Positions 31,981 to 38,952 of a stretch of 64,000 nt of DNA are shown here, piece by piece. Position 1 is the first letter of the stretch, and the number at the start of each line of letters is the position of its first letter. The notes beneath the pieces are model-generated. The model was not told the origin of the DNA. It did not search any database and saw nothing but the letters and a program-made list of their open reading frames with translations. Source of the DNA: Maridesulfovibrio ferrireducens (GTDB taxonomy: Bacteria > Desulfobacterota > Desulfovibrionia > Desulfovibrionales > Desulfovibrionaceae); contig NZ_JAEINN010000001.1 of assembly GCF_016342405.1 (NCBI RefSeq), positions 310,001 to 374,000 of the forward strand, given 5' to 3'. The position numbers and the translations under genes were made by a program.

Positions 31981-34900
31981 TTAACTTTTTTTAGCATAAT
32001 TAACGCTTAAGTCCAACATCGGAGAAATAAAGATATTCTTCCCTTTATTGTTGCGGATTACAGGGCAGTTTCGGCCCATGCACTCCAGATTGGTATCCAT
32101 TTGGTTGCACACCATATGCTTGTCTGCAGTAATACGCAAGCCCATAATTTCTTCTGATATTTTTGCGAAGGCTTTAAGGGCAAGCCACGAGTCTCTCTGA
32201 CAGCATCTTGCAGCTTCAATGTCAGCAATTAATTGAAGCGCAGCAAGAGTTCCCTTCTGAGCGGTAGATCTTAGGTCGGGTGTCAACGGAGTGGCTTCAA
32301 GAATAGCACTTATTGCTACTCCTACACCTATTGCTGCGCCGCAGACTCCCATAAATCCGCAGAATCCACCGGCAATTTTAGCTCCGCGTGAAATTGCGGT
32401 TTCAATTACTTTGTTGTCTATTTTCCCGCCGCTGTTGCGGTAGGCGGCAACTATAATTCCCGGAACCAGGGCGTGATGCTCAGGGCCGTGCATGGGGATT
32501 GCCGGATGATTTCTTATTTTCATAAGAAGGTCAATCATATCTGTTTCAGTGCTGCTTGTAAGCAGATGCGGCAAAACTTCAATTCCGTCTTCTCTGTGGC
32601 AATTATCACAGACAAAGTGTTTGTTTACGCAGTAAGCATTGGCCTCATGTTCTTCTCCGCAGTATGCGCAGATTCTTTTTTCATATCTGGTCAGATAGTT
32701 CAGTTCAGCACCGCAGACCATGCAGCCACTCTTATTTTTCATGCTGACAGTGTGGCCAGATAAGAGGGGAGCTGTAGGCCCGTCAAAAGAATCAGGAGTC
32801 GGACAGCAGCAGGACTCGCCTACCATCATATTAGATATGACACCTTCATCATTAAGAATGAAGATTTGCTCTCCCATTTGTTCGGCTTCTTTTTCGGAAA
32901 TTTCAGTGATGCTTCCCGGGACAAGCAATTCTCCCTGTGCGGTCTGTCCTGTTGAAAACGGACCTCTGAACATGATTTTTGTCATTTTCTCAGTAGACGG
33001 TTTCAGTGCTGAAAATGTCAGAGAATAAAAATTGTGCCCGCCGACAACTCTGTATGGGAAACGCTTGATCATACAAATTGATTTGAATCCAGCTTCTTCG
33101 AGTAGCCCGACAAGGTTTTTCAGAGTTTGCGCTCCGGCGATACATTCTCCGTGCAGCTTGTCATCATTACGGATTTCAGGGCCGGGTTCAGTTTCGCAGA
33201 CAACATCCGAAATTGTCAGCCTGCCGCCTGGTGCTAGAATCCTTAACATTTCAGAAAATGTTTTGCGCTTATCGGTGGATAAATTCAGAACACAGTTGGA
33301 AAGCAACAGGTTTGCGCAATTATCTTCAAGAGGGATAGATTCAAGATATCCTTTGCGGAAATCCATATTGTCATAGCCCAGATTGGCGGCAACAGCTTGT
33401 TGCCCTTTGCGCGAATGGGCGAGCATGGGATCAAGCATATCTATTCCGGTGACTTTGCCCGAAGAACCCACCATTTTAGATGCAATAAAACATTCTATCC
33501 CGCGTCCGCTGCCGAGATCTACAACGTGTTCTCCAGACAGAATTTGTGCGTCCATAACCGGAGAACCGCATCCGTATCCTCTGAATTTGAATTCCTCTGG
33601 AATGTGGACCATAAGCTCAGAATCATAGCATGCAGGGTTTAAAATATCTTCTTTGGCTGTGTCGGCAGCATCTGTGTAAAAGTCTTTTACAACTGTAAGG
33701 CTGTCCTTACCTGCGACAGCTAAGAGGCAGTTGGTGTGAGTCAGCGCCACTTTGCCGTGTTCTGAACATTTGTCGAGCTTGTCACCCATTTTAAGGAGCA
33801 GTTTCGGAGAATCGTGGCCCGGACTTTGCGCGGCTTTGTCTGTGATCAGTTTTAGAGCAGTTTTTTCATATAGCCCGGTGTAAGGATCGTTACCGGTAAA
33901 ATCTCCGCTGTGCATCCAGCTGTGATCAGTGTCACCGCCGCCAAGAATAAGCTTGAAGGGGGTAGACAGATTTTTGCCGGTGGTTTCACGTATATCCGTC
34001 AGAATACGACTTTCTTTCCAGCCCTTTTCAAGGTTTTTATCAAGAGGGGTGGCAAGCTTTTCAATGCCGACAGTTGCTGGAGAAGGGTACAGCTTATTGT
34101 CCGGTCCAATTGCCAGAGATTCCCATCCGGCAGTCGACCCATCGTGAATAGTTCCGCAAGGAGCAAAAATCATGCTTTTTATTGCTTCGATATTGTCGAT
34201 TGTTACCCCGGTGCGTTCTCCTGTCTCTATTGCTTCAAGCAAATGAGTGTAAATAATGTCCGGATCAACAAAACGCTGCGCTTGTCCTCTTCCTCGCACG
34301 AAATACCACATGAAATGAACGTTTGAAGCTCCGGTCTCAGCCGCTAATTCAACTACATCCTTCATCTGAGTTACATTTGATTTTGTAACACACATGGAGA
34401 TTGTAAAGGGAATGGTTTCGGATGAAAGCCATTTCAGAGAATTTTCAAGGGCAGCAAACATGCCCGGTCCTCTGATTTCGTCATGTGTATCTTTTATGCC
34501 GTCAACACTGATTTGCAGGTGGCAGCGTTCAAAGTCATAGCGGTGTTTTGAAAAGAAATTTTTAGCATTAAGGCCGTTGGAAAGAATTGCAACGTGGCTT
34601 GATTCAATTTCAAGCATTCTGTTGATGATTTTGTCCGCACCCGGGTGAATTAATGGTTCTCCGCCAGTCAGGGCAAAAAGTTTACAGCCCAGCTTTTCAG
34701 CCTGATCGGTCAAATCGAGAACTCTTTCGATTGCTAGCTCCGGCTGTGCTTCGGAGGAAAGTGATGAGGCTGCGGAAGGTGATGAAGCGAATAGACAGTG
34801 ATTGCAGCTCATGTTGCAATTGTTGGTCAGGTGAAACCAAAGTTCGCGGAGAGTGTCTAGTTTAAGGAGTTCTTTCCTGCCCGGGTAAATACTAGTTGCT

Positions 34901-35088
34901 TCATCCGGTAAGCGCATAAGAAATTTTTCATCGGCAATGGATAAACAACTGTTTTCATCTTCGGATAATCTTTGGAGCAGGGCATCGCCTGCCGGAGTGG
35001 GGACAAACCAGTCTGGAGATTTCGGTCTGATATAAACAGGGGTATTGTCGTGTGAGATTCTAGTCCACTCGCTGAGTTTAAAAGGCAA
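31981..35088 (-). CDS. Three-domain radical SAM / methyltransferase / DUF5714-like fusion
   Basis: 1035 residues. Residues 85-340 are a radical SAM domain with CNMSCNHC (C91, C95, C98) and TGGEP near 140, then a linker. Residues 480-690 are an ArsM/UbiE-like methyltransferase (RGYGCGSPV, VVDLGSGRGIECFIA, LSNCVLNLSTDKRK, APGGRLTISDVV). Residues 770-1035 are a Cys-rich part with zinc-ribbon pairs (CMVCG, CAYCG, CDNCH) and a domain I assign to the DUF5714 type (GPEHHALVP, GGFCGFMGVCGAAIG, AARCCQRDSWLALKAF). ESCCCPT lies between. Resemblance to arsenic methyltransferases is in the middle domain only. It may methylate or modify a metalloid or thiol compound; function unknown. Confidence 0.75.
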   Translation of the reverse strand: MPFKLSEWTRISHDNTPVYIRPKSPDWFVPTPAGDALLQRLSEDENSCLSIADEKFLMRLPDEATSIYPGRKELLKLDTLRELWFHLTNNCNMSCNHCLFASSPSAASSLSSEAQPELAIERVLDLTDQAEKLGCKLFALTGGEPLIHPGADKIINRMLEIESSHVAILSNGLNAKNFFSKHRYDFERCHLQISVDGIKDTHDEIRGPGMFAALENSLKWLSSETIPFTISMCVTKSNVTQMKDVVELAAETGASNVHFMWYFVRGRGQAQRFVDPDIIYTHLLEAIETGERTGVTIDNIEAIKSMIFAPCGTIHDGSTAGWESLAIGPDNKLYPSPATVGIEKLATPLDKNLEKGWKESRILTDIRETTGKNLSTPFKLILGGGDTDHSWMHSGDFTGNDPYTGLYEKTALKLITDKAAQSPGHDSPKLLLKMGDKLDKCSEHGKVALTHTNCLLAVAGKDSLTVVKDFYTDAADTAKEDILNPACYDSELMVHIPEEFKFRGYGCGSPVMDAQILSGEHVVDLGSGRGIECFIASKMVGSSGKVTGIDMLDPMLAHSRKGQQAVAANLGYDNMDFRKGYLESIPLEDNCANLLLSNCVLNLSTDKRKTFSEMLRILAPGGRLTISDVVCETEPGPEIRNDDKLHGECIAGAQTLKNLVGLLEEAGFKSICMIKRFPYRVVGGHNFYSLTFSALKPSTEKMTKIMFRGPFSTGQTAQGELLVPGSITEISEKEAEQMGEQIFILNDEGVISNMMVGESCCCPTPDSFDGPTAPLLSGHTVSMKNKSGCMVCGAELNYLTRYEKRICAYCGEEHEANAYCVNKHFVCDNCHREDGIEVLPHLLTSSTETDMIDLLMKIRNHPAIPMHGPEHHALVPGIIVAAYRNSGGKIDNKVIETAISRGAKIAGGFCGFMGVCGAAIGVGVAISAILEATPLTPDLRSTAQKGTLAALQLIADIEAARCCQRDSWLALKAFAKISEEIMGLRITADKHMVCNQMDTNLECMGRNCPVIRNNKGKNIFISPMLDLSVNYAKKS

Positions 35089-35166: not shown

Positions 35167-35847
35167 TTAAATCAAGGTCTTTGCCAGAACCAGAACTTCC
35201 ACTCTTTCGGCTCCAGCATCATATAATGTACTGGCGCATTCCTGAACAGTCGATCCGGTTGTATAGACGTCATCGATCAGCAGAATCTTTTTTCCGGCGA
35301 CGGTTGCCGGATTCGCAGTAAAAGCGTTCTTGATATTTTCGGTACGCATCTCTTTAGAAAGCGTGCTTTGCGGAGTAGTTTTACGATTTCTTACAAGAGC
35401 GCGGTCAGAAATTTTAGCGCCTAATACCGAGGCCGCACTGCGTCCTATTATCCGGCTTTGATTAAATCCTCTTTTGCGTAGCCGCGAAGGGTGAAGAGGA
35501 ACAGGAATAATAATGTCAGGGCGGGAGGACTCGGGAATTGATTCGGCAACACCGGTTGCGAACTGCGAAAGGAGTGCGCTGTAACCGAAGTTGTTATTGA
35601 ATTTCCAATCTAATATTAAATCGCGAAGCAGGCCGCGGTATGGTCCGTAAAAGTAAATTCCTTTATGAGGGGCCTCTTCTTCGTCATGAACAGAACCTTC
35701 GATAAGTTCAGAATAGCAATCAGGGCAGAGAAGTTTTTTATTCGAATGCGGTGTACGACAGATCGGGCATCTTTTTTCAGTAAAGATTGATCTTAATCTG
35801 TCGAATGCGGCAATCGGTGAAAAGTATGAAATAAAGCCGGAGATCAT
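35167..35847 (-). CDS. ComF-family phosphoribosyltransferase-like protein
   Basis: 226 residues. An N-terminal zinc-finger (CPICRTPHSNKKLLCPDC) precedes a PRTase domain with IIPVPLHPSRLRKRGFNQS and the PRPP loop ILLIDDVYTTGSTVQEC. ComF proteins act in DNA uptake and recombination-linked processes. It follows the receiver gene by 10 bases in the minus-strand operon that begins with the predicted selenoprotein. Confidence 0.9.
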   Translation of the reverse strand: MISGFISYFSPIAAFDRLRSIFTEKRCPICRTPHSNKKLLCPDCYSELIEGSVHDEEEAPHKGIYFYGPYRGLLRDLILDWKFNNNFGYSALLSQFATGVAESIPESSRPDIIIPVPLHPSRLRKRGFNQSRIIGRSAASVLGAKISDRALVRNRKTTPQSTLSKEMRTENIKNAFTANPATVAGKKILLIDDVYTTGSTVQECASTLYDAGAERVEVLVLAKTLI

Positions 35848-35857
35848 AAAATAAGCT

Positions 35858-36235
35858 TTAATCAGTGAATCTGGAAATTATTTTAGCCAGTTCAGTTTTA
35901 ACAATCGGTTTAAGCAGAAAACTGTTATATCCACAGTCCAGACATTCTGTGAGCAGGTCTGCATTGTCCCCTGTAGTCATGGCAAAAACAGGTGTAGTTA
36001 TTCCTTCGTTTCGTATTCTTGATACGACTTCTGTCCCGTTCATTTCGGGCATATGAACGTCCATCAGGGCCATGTCGAATTCTTCATTATTGAGCTGTTC
36101 GAGAGCTTCACTGCCGTTTACTGCAAAAACAGGCTTAATTCCGAGCTGGGCCAGATAAGTTTTGAGCACAAGGCGGACCGGACGGGAATCCTCCGCAACT
36201 AGAATTTTGAATTTTGATAGATCTTTACAGCTCAT
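35858..36235 (-). CDS. Single-domain response regulator (receiver)
   Basis: 125 residues. CheY-like receiver: acidic pair ED near residue 16 (LVAEDSRP), phosphoacceptor Asp in MALMDVHMPEMNG, Thr in FAMTTGD, Lys in LLKPI. No output domain. Start at 36235 is chosen because GGAG precedes it and its ATG overlaps the upstream stop (ATGA). Partner kinase is not in the window. Confidence 0.88.
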   Translation of the reverse strand: MSCKDLSKFKILVAEDSRPVRLVLKTYLAQLGIKPVFAVNGSEALEQLNNEEFDMALMDVHMPEMNGTEVVSRIRNEGITTPVFAMTTGDNADLLTECLDCGYNSFLLKPIVKTELAKIISRFTD

Positions 36236-36834
36236 GCCTGAAGGCTCCTTTCCCATGCGTTTATTCCAGCCTGAATTAACAGCTCACATTTATCCGGCTG
36301 ACTTTTAAGGTCCTGCGGAGAATCGATTCCCTTGAAAGTAATAGGGGGCTCAAGGGATGCTTTAAAAAATTTCAAACAAAATTTTAACGAAAGTTCCGCG
36401 CCTTCAAACAGTTTTTCACCTTTGGGTCTGCCGGCAATAAAACATGCGTAAGAAGGTCTCGCGGGTAAAGTGCAAAGTTGCGGTGCCGACTGATTCATAG
36501 CCTCAAAAGCCCATTGGGACCGGTCTATAAAAGTTTTCAGACGGGAAGGGAGATGATAAAAATATATAGGGGAGGCAAAGAATGTGAACGGCGCATGGAT
36601 AATTTTCAAATAAAGTTCCTGCGCTTCGTCTTTAGCGGCAAAGATACAGAGATTGTTCTCTGATGTCCGGCATTTCAGACAGCCGATGCAGTGATGAAAA
36701 TCTAAATTGCCGAGAGTAACTATTTCTGCGTTTCCTCCGGCTCTTTGAATTCCTTCAAGAAAAAGATCAGCAGCGAGATCGCTGTTGCCTTTTCTATGAT
36801 GGCTGCAAGCAAAAAGGACCGGAGGTTGTTTCAT
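36232..36834 (-). CDS. NADPH-dependent FMN reductase-like flavoprotein with Cys cluster
   Basis: 200 residues. Flavodoxin-like fold (LFACSHHRKGNSDLAADLFLEG, APFTFFASPIYFYHLPSRLKTFIDRS) with a cysteine stretch CIGCLKC...CIF typical of iron-sulfur flavoproteins. Binds FMN and possibly a 4Fe-4S cluster. The gene starts 16 bases after the end of the predicted Cys-Sec protein gene and very likely shares its transcript, so the two may form a redox pair. Confidence 0.85.
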   Translation of the reverse strand: MKQPPVLFACSHHRKGNSDLAADLFLEGIQRAGGNAEIVTLGNLDFHHCIGCLKCRTSENNLCIFAAKDEAQELYLKIIHAPFTFFASPIYFYHLPSRLKTFIDRSQWAFEAMNQSAPQLCTLPARPSYACFIAGRPKGEKLFEGAELSLKFCLKFFKASLEPPITFKGIDSPQDLKSQPDKCELLIQAGINAWERSLQA

Positions 36835-36850: not shown

Positions 36851-37096
36851 TTAAGATTTTTTTTTATCCCTTGGATGACTGCATGTAAAAATCGCTTTTA
36901 CATGGTCGTCTTCATCTTGAATTTCAAGTGACCATTCGGGTAAAATTTCCAGTTGATGATGCAACTGGGGTTCCGTGCCCTTATCTGTAAGAGCTATTAC
37001 TTCCTGAGTTCTGGCAAAACGGAGATACCAACCTACCTCCAGTCCTACTCCTCAACATTTGTTACGGATATCTACTGTCCGTGAGTTGTTATCCAT
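36851..37096 (-). CDS. Predicted small selenoprotein with Cys-Sec motif (in-frame UGA)
   Basis: The ATG at 37096 has GGAAGGA 6 bases upstream. The frame runs 81 codons to a TAA at 36851-36853, interrupted only by UGA at codon 15 (37052-37054). Read as Sec, this gives RNKC-U-GVGLEVGWYLRFART, a vicinal Cys-Sec pair. The 67 codons after UGA stay open. Exactly 18 bases after the UGA a 7-bp stem (GGAGGTA/TATCTCC) carries a GGTTGG loop, matching the distance and GGU loop of the E. coli fdhF SECIS. It is followed by a Cys-rich flavoprotein gene 16 bases on. A Cys/Sec dithiol-like role is inferred; protein family unknown to me. A nonsense-mutated gene is the alternative. Confidence 0.75.
37021..37040 (-). 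promoter_or_regulatory. SECIS-like hairpin downstream of the in-frame UGA
   Basis: On the minus strand GGAGGTA-GGTTGG-TATCTCC forms a 7-bp stem with one G-U pair and a 6-base loop starting GGU. The loop begins 18 bases after the UGA codon, within the range used by bacterial SelB. Confidence 0.7.
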
Positions 37097-37201
37097 CTGT
37101 ATTCCTTCCGAAATTAATCCTAGGAGATATGCAACTTTTTTTAAAAGTGAAGCAAAAGAGATTAGTTATTCTTAGTATATTTTCAACTAAAGGGGAAGAG
37201 T

Positions 37202-37825
37202 CTAAAACTGCATGCTGCTAAAAAAAGGATTATGGTTGATTTCATCTCCGACAGACGTGGCAGGGCCGTGTCCTGATAAGAGAGTTGTATTTTCGGGTAA
37301 AGTGAAAATGTTTTCCTGTACGGACTTTTTCAACAGTTCAAGATCACCGCCGGGGAAATCAGTTCTGCCGATGGAGCGCTGGAAAATGAGATCTCCCACA
37401 AAAGCCGTTTCAAGAGCTGGAAAATAAAAAGTCAGACTGCCCGGAGCATGGCCCGGAGTAGACAGGACATTACATTCAAGACCTATTATTTCAGTTTTGC
37501 CGATTTTGATGTGTTCTGACTCGAAGGGGGCAACCTTTACACCGATCATGCTGCCGTCGCCTAATCCTGTCTCCATAAGAGAAAGTCCGGACTCGTCTGC
37601 ATATATAGTCTTGCCAGTTGCTTCAACCAATGCTGCATTTCCAATTATGTGATCGAAGTGAAGATGTGTATTTAGAATACAGTCTAGCTCGACTCCTGTT
37701 TTTTTGAAAAAATTAAGCAGGGAAGTAGGATCGCCGCCCGGATCAATTACAACAGCTTTATTGTCATTAGTGATCACGTAGCAATTAGTTTCAAGCGGTC
37801 CGAGAGGAAAAAGTTTAATATCCAT
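37202..37825 (-). CDS. Metallo-beta-lactamase-fold hydrolase (glyoxalase II-like)
   Basis: 207 residues. Metal-binding motif THLHFDHIIG near 55, further ligands in STPGHAPGS, GDLIF and LLSGHGP at the C-terminus. YcbL/GloB-like thioester hydrolases have this pattern. Overlaps by one base with the nitroreductase gene upstream, so they are co-transcribed. Substrate uncertain. Confidence 0.9.
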   Translation of the reverse strand: MDIKLFPLGPLETNCYVITNDNKAVVIDPGGDPTSLLNFFKKTGVELDCILNTHLHFDHIIGNAALVEATGKTIYADESGLSLMETGLGDGSMIGVKVAPFESEHIKIGKTEIIGLECNVLSTPGHAPGSLTFYFPALETAFVGDLIFQRSIGRTDFPGGDLELLKKSVQENIFTLPENTTLLSGHGPATSVGDEINHNPFFSSMQF

Positions 37826-38343
37826 TAATAGGTCTCCAACATTATTTTAGAAAGATCTTTGCGACTGGATCCGCCCTTCTGGGCTGGGTGTCCTGCGGCT
37901 ACAACAGCCTGTAGTTCATATTTTTCGAGCGGAAGGTTCAGTATTTCAAGCACCTGAGCTTCCTGATTGAGAATTTCTCCGAGCCAGACTGTTCCGATAT
38001 TTAAAGAATGGGCGGCGAGCATCATGTTTTGCAGACATGCACCGACAGCCTGATGGTCTTTCATCTCATTATAGATACATTCGCGTTCAAGGAATACACA
38101 GATAAGAACTTTTGCCGCTTGCGCAATTTTAGAATATTTTGTGCACTGTGCAACTTTTGCGGCACGCGGGTCGTCTTTGTGTATCACCAGAAAGCGCCAT
38201 GGCTGGTTATTTAAACCGCTGGGCGCCCACCTGCCGGCTTCAAGTATTGCAGTCAGGTCTTCACGGGAAATGGGACTGTCTGTGTATTTTCGTATGGAGC
38301 GTCTATCCGCCAGAGCTTCAAGAACGGGATTGTTATCAATCAT
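37825..38343 (-). CDS. Nitroreductase-family FMN protein
   Basis: 172 residues. RRSIRKYTDSPISRE at the N-terminus, GRWAPSGLNNQPWRFLVI, GACLQNMMLAAHSLNIGTVWLGEI and the C-terminal GHPAQK are nitroreductase signatures. Binds FMN and uses NAD(P)H; physiological substrate unknown. Confidence 0.9.
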   Translation of the reverse strand: MIDNNPVLEALADRRSIRKYTDSPISREDLTAILEAGRWAPSGLNNQPWRFLVIHKDDPRAAKVAQCTKYSKIAQAAKVLICVFLERECIYNEMKDHQAVGACLQNMMLAAHSLNIGTVWLGEILNQEAQVLEILNLPLEKYELQAVVAAGHPAQKGGSSRKDLSKIMLETY

Positions 38344-38361: not shown

Positions 38362-38952
38362 TTAGAAGGGCACGCCTCTGAAAATATTGAATTTGTTGAC
38401 CGCGTTGTCAAACTCACTTGGATTAAGCTCATTGTTAAGGTCAGAGTCAAAATCTTTAAAGTTAGCTTTCAGCTGAATTGCTTCTGCTTCTTCTTCATCT
38501 ATTTTACCATCTTTGTTGAGGTCGGCTTCTTCAAAGGTGGGAAGAGGTTTTTTGATTTCATAATCCTTAACAATTTCACACTTAATATGGCGCCCGTCAG
38601 CAGCAAGCGTTACATCAATATTTGTTCCGGGGGCGATGTAAAGTTTAACGCATGTATCGCCGGACCAGAAGTCTACGCCGTTCTTGTCTTCACGGGCCAG
38701 CTTTATTTTGGCCTTGCCGCCTTTTTTGTCAAAGCAGTCTTTATTGTAAAGAGCATTGCAGGAACAGTCTGTAATTGTACTTGCTTTTACTCTTCCGAAT
38801 TCAAAATCATTACTTTTACCCCATATTCGGACAACGCTGCCTGTATGGTTAATAATAGTGAAAGTTTTTTTCTGCGCCATGGCAGAAGGTGCAGCGCAAA
38901 GAATAAGTCCTGCGAAAAACATGAAAAATATAGAAAGTCTGCGTAGCGTCAT
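38362..38952 (-). CDS. Secreted EF-hand protein
   Basis: 196 residues. Signal peptide (LSIFFMFFAGLILCAAPSAMAQ). Mature part has four cysteines (CSCNALYNKDC, DTCVKL, IKCEIV) and two EF-hand loops near the C-terminus: DLNKDGKIDEEE and a second DFDSDLNNELNPSEF. Probably a periplasmic calcium-binding protein; role unknown. Confidence 0.82.
   Translation of the reverse strand: MTLRRLSIFFMFFAGLILCAAPSAMAQKKTFTIINHTGSVVRIWGKSNDFEFGRVKASTITDCSCNALYNKDCFDKKGGKAKIKLAREDKNGVDFWSGDTCVKLYIAPGTNIDVTLAADGRHIKCEIVKDYEIKKPLPTFEEADLNKDGKIDEEEAEAIQLKANFKDFDSDLNNELNPSEFDNAVNKFNIFRGVPF

Follow-up and report, generated by a model that had tools for sequence, protein, structure and literature searches.

Gene and features at the locus

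The window, by which is meant the whole 64,000 nt stretch of DNA analysed, has an 81-codon open reading frame on the minus strand (positions 37096 to 36851). It starts with ATG, ends with TAA and has a single internal stop, a UGA at codon 15. This UGA (minus strand, 37054–37052) is directly 3' of a TGT Cys codon (37055–37057) and is followed by 66 sense codons. An earlier note on this DNA, made from the sequence alone, had described a frame broken only by a UGA at codon 15 after Cys and then open for 66 sense codons, and translation confirms it; the coordinates and counts given there are right, but the minus strand was left unstated. The good ribosome site that the note had claimed is present as a Shine-Dalgarno-like GGAAGGA ahead of the ATG. 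With U for selenocysteine (Sec), the product is MDNNSRTVDIRNKCUGVGLEVGWYLRFARTQEVIALTDKGTEPQLHHQLEILPEWSLEIQDEDDHVKAIFTCSHPRDKKKS. The features are as follows.

36851–37096, minus strand: putative selenoprotein gene; based on translation with TGA as U, on matches that span the UGA (88 of 148 genomes) and on UGA in 87 of 90 copies
37052–37054, minus strand: putative Sec codon UGA; from the sequence and from the alignment of 90 copies, 87 with UGA and three with Cys at this codon
37021–37040, minus strand: SECIS-like stem-loop with a 7-bp stem (GGAGGTA/TATCTCC) and the loop GGTTGG; based on retained pairing, stability, covariation and the offset of GGU
37103–37109, minus strand: Shine-Dalgarno-like GGAAGGA, 6 nt 5' of the ATG; from the sequence
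37825–38343, minus strand: nitroreductase-family protein, upstream operon member (PF00881, 1.5e-31)
37202–37825, minus strand: MBL-fold (glyoxalase II-like) hydrolase, upstream operon member (PF00753, 1.9e-28)
36232–36834, minus strand: iron-sulfur-flavoprotein-like protein (FMN_red, CX2CX2CX7C), 16 bases downstream of the selenoprotein stop (PF03358, 2.2e-12)
35858–36256, minus strand: stand-alone receiver domain, downstream (PF00072, 1.7e-25)
35167–35847, minus strand: ComF-family phosphoribosyltransferase, downstream (TIGR00201, 5.6e-34, below cut-off)

The downstream order of FMN protein, receiver domain and ComF is as the note had given it. A gene on the plus strand over 36851–37096 was considered and rejected; frame 1 of that strand holds a stop other than UGA.

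Two further minus-strand genes flank these features. The gene after ComF (31981–35088) encodes a 1035-residue protein made up of a radical SAM domain, an ArsM-like methyltransferase and DUF5714. Parts of it resemble the selenoproteins ArsM_DUF2284_UU and MbdU below the NCBIfam cut-offs, and there is no internal stop in its frame. Upstream of the operon, the product of 38362–38952 has a signal-like N-terminus and an EF-hand-like DLNKDGKIDEEE stretch, both identified by eye. Matches to this protein are found only in the 17 loci of the source genus, many other loci having short flanks.

Conservation through the UGA codon

A search with the single protein over the source genome and its relatives gave matches in 88 of 148 genomes, source genome included. 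This is a lower bound, since two of 20 extra genomes fetched hold a Cys-UGA copy found by HMM. The 90 rows listed in the search, extracted as loci L009–L098, comprise 87 with exactly one internal stop, which is TGA, and three with none. The aligned codon is TGA in the 87 and Cys in the other three; neither TAA nor TAG is found at the Sec codon in the 87 copies. The earlier note had taken homologues with Cys or UGA at position 15 as support for the gene, and had held that it would be refuted by a lack of conservation beyond codon 15, by unrelated sense residues at the UGA position or by absence of Sec machinery. Homology continues past the UGA, and Cys is the only sense residue seen there.

Residues on both sides of the UGA are conserved. 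Asp at −6 and Leu at +10 relative to Sec are invariant in the 87 UGA copies, Arg at +11 is present in 84 and Cys at −1 in 86, the one exception (L076) having Gly. Pairwise comparison of codons +13 to +54 in the 17 loci of the source genus, where pairs are not independent, gives 3204 differences at the third position compared with 1445 and 1097 at the others. When only the part after Sec was used as the query, Cys-TGA was found to precede the matched stretch in 24 of 24 named loci. These are titled Solidesulfovibrio, Pseudodesulfovibrio, Nitratidesulfovibrio, Desulfovibrio or Desulfovibrionaceae, with one metagenome-assembled genome titled Proteobacteria, and some are contigs also present in the 148-genome set. 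A profile scan of 395 genomes of the phylum gave six that match at E <= 1e-5, all from the family of the source organism. Within the genomes scanned, the selenoprotein family appears restricted to the order of the source organism; the profile itself was made from members of that order and the initial pass was loose.

The reading of UGA as Trp was rejected. Of the 87 UGA copies, 58 terminate with TGA. UGA thus keeps its meaning as a stop within the same gene and is used both ways.

Stem-loop downstream of the UGA

The earlier note had placed the 7-bp stem 18 bases after the UGA. The stem starts 11 nt after it, and it is the GGU loop that starts at 18. GGU occupies positions +19 to +21 after the UGA, an offset identical to that in E. 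coli fdhF (K-12 record), and the likeness to fdhF that had been proposed is upheld.

Pairing is well kept in most of the 87 UGA copies, with seven pairs in 52, six in 16, five in 1 and four in 4, and poorly kept in the rest, with three pairs in 5, two in 8 and one in 1. All 14 copies with three pairs or fewer carry AGTT at +19 to +22, and RNAfold puts this AGTT in the loop of another hairpin. It seems that 14 of the 87 copies use another stem. These are L059, L060, L062, L064, L068, L073, L075, L077, L078, L080, L081, L083, L094 and L096; their alternative hairpin is shorter, has the AGTT loop and pairs bases of the next Trp codon.

Shuffle and covariation tests were done on 41 of the 87 UGA copies, picked greedily below 66% identity. 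For each, 500 synonymous variants were made with the codon usage of the neighbouring genes, pooled where there were too few codons. All 41 representatives are more stable than the mean of their variants, with a mean z of −2.2, and 27 of them lie at or below the 5% level. Four control offsets within these genes give mean z values of −0.30, −0.29, −0.19 and −0.04.

Pairing is kept in 89.5% of cells of the 41-row alignment, and both sides are changed in 21, values of which neither is reached in any of 500 shuffles. If the partner is displaced by one, two or three columns, 38.0 to 72.1% of cells pair and 0 to 17 are double-changed. The two-column slide still produces 17 double-changed cells with 72.1% paired versus 89.5% unshifted, and the double-change count alone is therefore not decisive. 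The clearest covariation is at pair 16:27. Where the Val/Ile codon starts with A, the opposite third base is T in 19 of 19 copies; where it starts with G, the opposite base is T in 32, C in 29 and an unpaired G in 7. The loop-adjacent pair 18:25 is unformed in 34 of the 87 copies. Because related sequences are not independent, all p values for the stem-loop serve as guides only.

Sec machinery and its co-distribution with the UGA copies

The Sec machinery that the earlier note wanted checked is complete in the source genome, with tRNA-Sec (80.1 bits), SelB (374), SelA (608) and SelD (331) all over cut-off, and the absence that would have refuted the gene did not occur. The SelD gene of this genome itself holds one in-frame TGA. 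Among relatives, a UGA copy is present in 85 of 133 genomes with tRNA-Sec versus 2 of 15 without (Fisher p 2e-4). The two without are assemblies 82% (G138) and 77% (G146) complete; G146 has a full SelA match and G138 a 28-position fragment below cut-off.

Cys-bearing relatives

Homologues with Cys at the Sec position number five, of which three (L039, L040 and L041) are among the 90 loci and two (L131 and L132) were added by a profile search of the 395 genomes of the phylum. They are few, and are either distant or from a genome without detected SelA. The latter is L040, from genome G141. Neither tRNA-Sec nor SelA was detected in G141, an assembly 85% complete, so absence is not proof. This copy has Cys-Pro-Cys where G143 and G095, of the same genus and both with SelA, have Cys-Sec, and the alignment puts its second Cys on the Sec column. 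From the sequences, L040 is likely a Sec-to-Cys conversion that followed loss of the Sec trait.

L039 and L041 are second, Cys-bearing copies in two genomes that also have a UGA copy. L132, a distant paralogue, is located in the source genome (contig C13, 6204–6413), where it adjoins a TIGR04282 glycosyltransferase gene and an MnmE gene. Comparison of a four-member Cys profile (L039, L041, L131 and L132) with a Sec-only profile by hhalign gives a probability of 97.9% and places Cys on the Sec column. This distant Cys family, with a CGLVPAI-type motif, has Cys at the Sec position and, in a model of lower confidence (pLDDT 76.9), the same order of strands and helices as the selenoprotein. It differs in having no UGA, an added GFGSGGDW-type segment and another gene context where this was examined. 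There was no match of weight to it in Pfam or NCBIfam.

Operon and neighbouring genes

The pairing with a flavoprotein put forward in the earlier note is usual but not obligatory. An FMN_red-type protein is immediately downstream in 80 of 90 loci (five of the hits overlap the end of the selenoprotein gene) and is not found in the other 10. Upstream, 77 of 90 loci have an MBL-fold hydrolase gene of the same orientation, about 1.1 kb away in seven cases, and 47 have a nitroreductase. ComF is downstream in 77, and the receiver domain in 17, which are the 17 loci of the source genus. These counts refer to flanks of 1.5 to 3 kb, and some contigs end early. The compact motif CX2CX2CX4-9C, a four-Cys arrangement that marks iron-sulfur flavoproteins with a 4Fe-4S cluster, occurs in 77 of the 80 flavoprotein partners, the other three having a longer last gap. 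No NCBIfam model matched the flavoprotein neighbour over cut-off.

Eight UGA loci (L037, L043, L048, L049, L053, L086, L088 and L089) and the Cys copies L039 and L041 have none of these neighbours. L048 is beside MoeA with a PBP domain and a histidine kinase, L053 beside a universal stress protein, and L086 beside a DsbA-like protein and leucyl/phenylalanyl-tRNA transferase. Selected neighbours of L048, L053, L086, L088, L041 and L132 analysed by Pfam show no common theme.

The operon also occurs without the selenoprotein gene. The single-protein search left 47 genomes that have the flavoprotein and no selenoprotein match, of which 20 were fetched (L163–L182). The MBL and flavoprotein hits are <=99 nt apart in 16 of these, which leaves no room for the selenoprotein gene, and in all 16 the MBL-flavoprotein-ComF order persists. 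Of the remaining four, L177 and L178 carry a Cys-UGA copy that the first search had not picked up, and L180 and L182 are ambiguous. The selenoprotein thus belongs to a wider operon as an optional component. By inference it is a helper to the flavoprotein or the hydrolase and not an essential subunit; gain versus loss of the gene is undecided.

Predicted structure and relation to TusA

Modelling of the selenoprotein with AlphaFold2 used a 43-row alignment (43 of 44 representatives, L074 being left out). The model has a pLDDT of 90.6 and a strand-helix-strand-helix-strand-strand order, with Sec15 just ahead of helix 1 (residues 17–27). A Foldseek comparison to the PDB gave no match at E <= 0.001, and searching the PDB by sequence yielded no useful hit. 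In the Foldseek order below that level of significance SpoVS is first, IF3-C and Alba are in the top eight, and TsuB and 3hz7 are at ranks 13 to 20. Alignment of the Foldseek candidates by VIA-align places TsuB/YeeD at the top (Z 10.4), followed by the SirA-like protein 3hz7 (10.1), a second TsuB entry (9.9) and two IscS-TusA entries (8.9 and 8.5). Smr, Alba and IF3-C, at 8.3 and below, have the general arrangement in common with the model.

The 3hz7 chain has Asp at residue 5 and Cys at residue 11, and this Asp-x5-Cys spacing equals the Asp-x5-Sec of the selenoprotein. The aligned ranges, 5–74 of the selenoprotein to 1–74 of 3hz7, put Asp9 and Sec15 on Asp5 and Cys11. This equivalence is read from the aligned ranges and not from residue-level output, and presumes no gap and agreeing numbering. 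TusA/SirA-like proteins (PF01206; TsuB/YeeD and DSY4693, the 3hz7 protein) and the selenoprotein are alike in being small and one-domain, in predicted fold, and in carrying their reactive residue where helix 1 begins, with Asp six residues before it. They differ in that the selenoprotein has Sec for Cys, a Cys preceding it, no CPxP motif and no significant HMM or profile similarity.

None of the 43 members matches PF01206, and profile comparison with TusA by hhalign gives a non-significant 9%. The CPxP motif, invariant in the TusA set used (11 of the 16 TusA segments identified), is missing and a CUGVG-type motif is present instead. Placement in the TusA family PF01206 was therefore rejected on the missing CPxP and the lack of profile similarity, despite the TusA-like predicted fold. 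As profile match and CPxP are both absent, the link to TusA rests on predicted fold and residue spacing. A one-domain protein of TusA/IF3-C-like fold, with Sec at the position of the TusA reactive Cys, is well supported by this prediction.

The source genome also encodes YedF (TIGR03527, 212 bits, over cut-off), a selenium-linked protein with a TusA domain and similar to the selenoprotein in this respect. Unlike the selenoprotein, YedF is a Cys protein of about 208 residues with the usual CPxP, and its gene is elsewhere in the genome (contig C7). SirA-like proteins have been linked to SelD through comparative genomics, according to the part of that report that was available (PMC2432076).

Interpretation and alternative explanations

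Comparison of the homologous sequences shows that the UGA at codon 15 is under selection as a Sec codon, with a conserved stem-loop just downstream; no Sec was measured. On this sequence evidence the gene very probably encodes a Sec-containing protein, for which neither selenium nor protein has been measured. The favored reading, with a probability of about 0.6, is that of a genuine selenoprotein of an uncatalogued family and TusA/IF3-C-like fold, in which Cys14 and Sec15 form the active pair of a small redox or chalcogen carrier. The vicinal pair would cycle between the selenol/thiol and selenenylsulfide forms. The iron-sulfur-flavoprotein-like neighbor would most likely be the electron partner or reductant, and in a sulfate reducer the substrates would most likely be oxidised sulfur compounds (persulfides, polysulfides); both are guesses from gene order and fold. 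In mammalian thioredoxin reductase the Gly-Cys-Sec-Gly tail forms a selenenylsulfide, and by this analogy such a bond between Cys14 and Sec15 is plausible. The redox chemistry suggested for the pair in the earlier note is plausible and untested. The metalloid chemistry suggested with it has no direct support beyond the ArsM-like neighbor in the source genome, and is left open.

A different function would be that of a true chalcogen carrier, in which Sec holds a terminal S or Se atom (Se-S or Se-Se) and hands it on without electron transfer. TusA and TsuB hand on sulfane sulfur, and the Cys of TusA forms a persulfide. Sec is at the place of this catalytic Cys in the model, the best aligned folds are TsuB/YeeD, the SirA-like protein and TusA, and the selenium-linked TusA-domain protein YedF is encoded in the same genome. 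The missing CPxP motif and TusA profile similarity weaken this comparison, however, and the Cys next to Sec, present in 86 of 87 copies, is no less in keeping with a redox pair; transfer without redox chemistry is possible but rather unlikely.

The other two alternatives concern the UGA itself. If it and the stem-loop were mainly a selenium-dependent switch, ribosomes would stop at codon 15 in the absence of selenium and coupled translation of the flavoprotein would drop. The position of the flavoprotein gene, 16 bases on in the window and the downstream neighbor in 80 of 90 loci, would suit such a device. The conservation of the protein after the UGA, with changes mostly at third positions, and its high-confidence fold are not what a switch would call for; moreover, the flavoprotein is missing beside the gene in 10 of 90 loci, and a Cys form is retained in one genome in which SelA was not detected. 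This explanation is improbable. The UGA may instead be an ordinary stop that ends a 14-codon leader, with a separate short gene starting within the frame. Standard gene callers would take this reading, and no Pfam or NCBIfam model covers the gene. It is contradicted by homology in one frame through the UGA in 87 copies, never with TAA or TAG, by the replacement of UGA by Cys elsewhere, by the location, ahead of the UGA, of both the invariant Asp and the first modelled strand, and by the presence of the stem-loop and Sec machinery, and can hardly be maintained.

Relation to known selenoproteins and significance

The earlier note did not recognize the protein family, and the database comparisons agree, as no Pfam or NCBIfam model covers the selenoprotein. 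The 43 members gave no match of weight in Pfam (five single-member hits, best E 0.019) and none below E 0.07 in NCBIfam. Table 1 of a 2026 catalogue of 119 selenoprotein families, which gives names, motifs and model ids only, has no TusA or SirA family, and neither "TusA" nor "SirA" occurs in its main text, supplements being outside this scope (PMC13188914). The CU-motif selenoproteins of this catalogue (SaoC, SaoL, HgcA, KCU-star and MbdU) have a vicinal Cys-Sec motif as in the present protein, but are listed under other domain or family models. A 2006 list for Desulfovibrio vulgaris has eight selenoprotein genes and none like this in the part available; presence of the gene in that organism is not established (PMC1794560). 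The family is absent from the selenoprotein catalogues checked, as far as their accessible parts go and including older lists (PMC1914089, PMC1794560), and prior mention is not excluded.

The available part of the deep-Sep report states that the method may miss selenoproteins without Cys homologues, that all known ones seem to have them, and that 6 known and 0 new selenoprotein genes were reported in the test genome of Desulfomicrobium orale (PMC12013277). The family described here falls in this stated blind spot of current selenoprotein finders.

A broader proposal, which is tentative and goes further than the data now carry, is that this is the first TusA-fold selenoprotein family. Sec would replace the sulfur-carrying Cys, and the protein would be used across the Desulfovibrionales as a high-rate carrier of S, Se or electrons between the iron-sulfur flavoprotein and the MBL-fold hydrolase; it would have escaped notice since almost every member has Sec and there are scarcely any close Cys homologues. 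The finding would add a widespread selenoprotein family to the Desulfovibrionales, on a fold without a listed selenoprotein in the 2026 catalogue. Why a TusA-like carrier should need selenium is a question that may be tested directly on the 81-residue protein.
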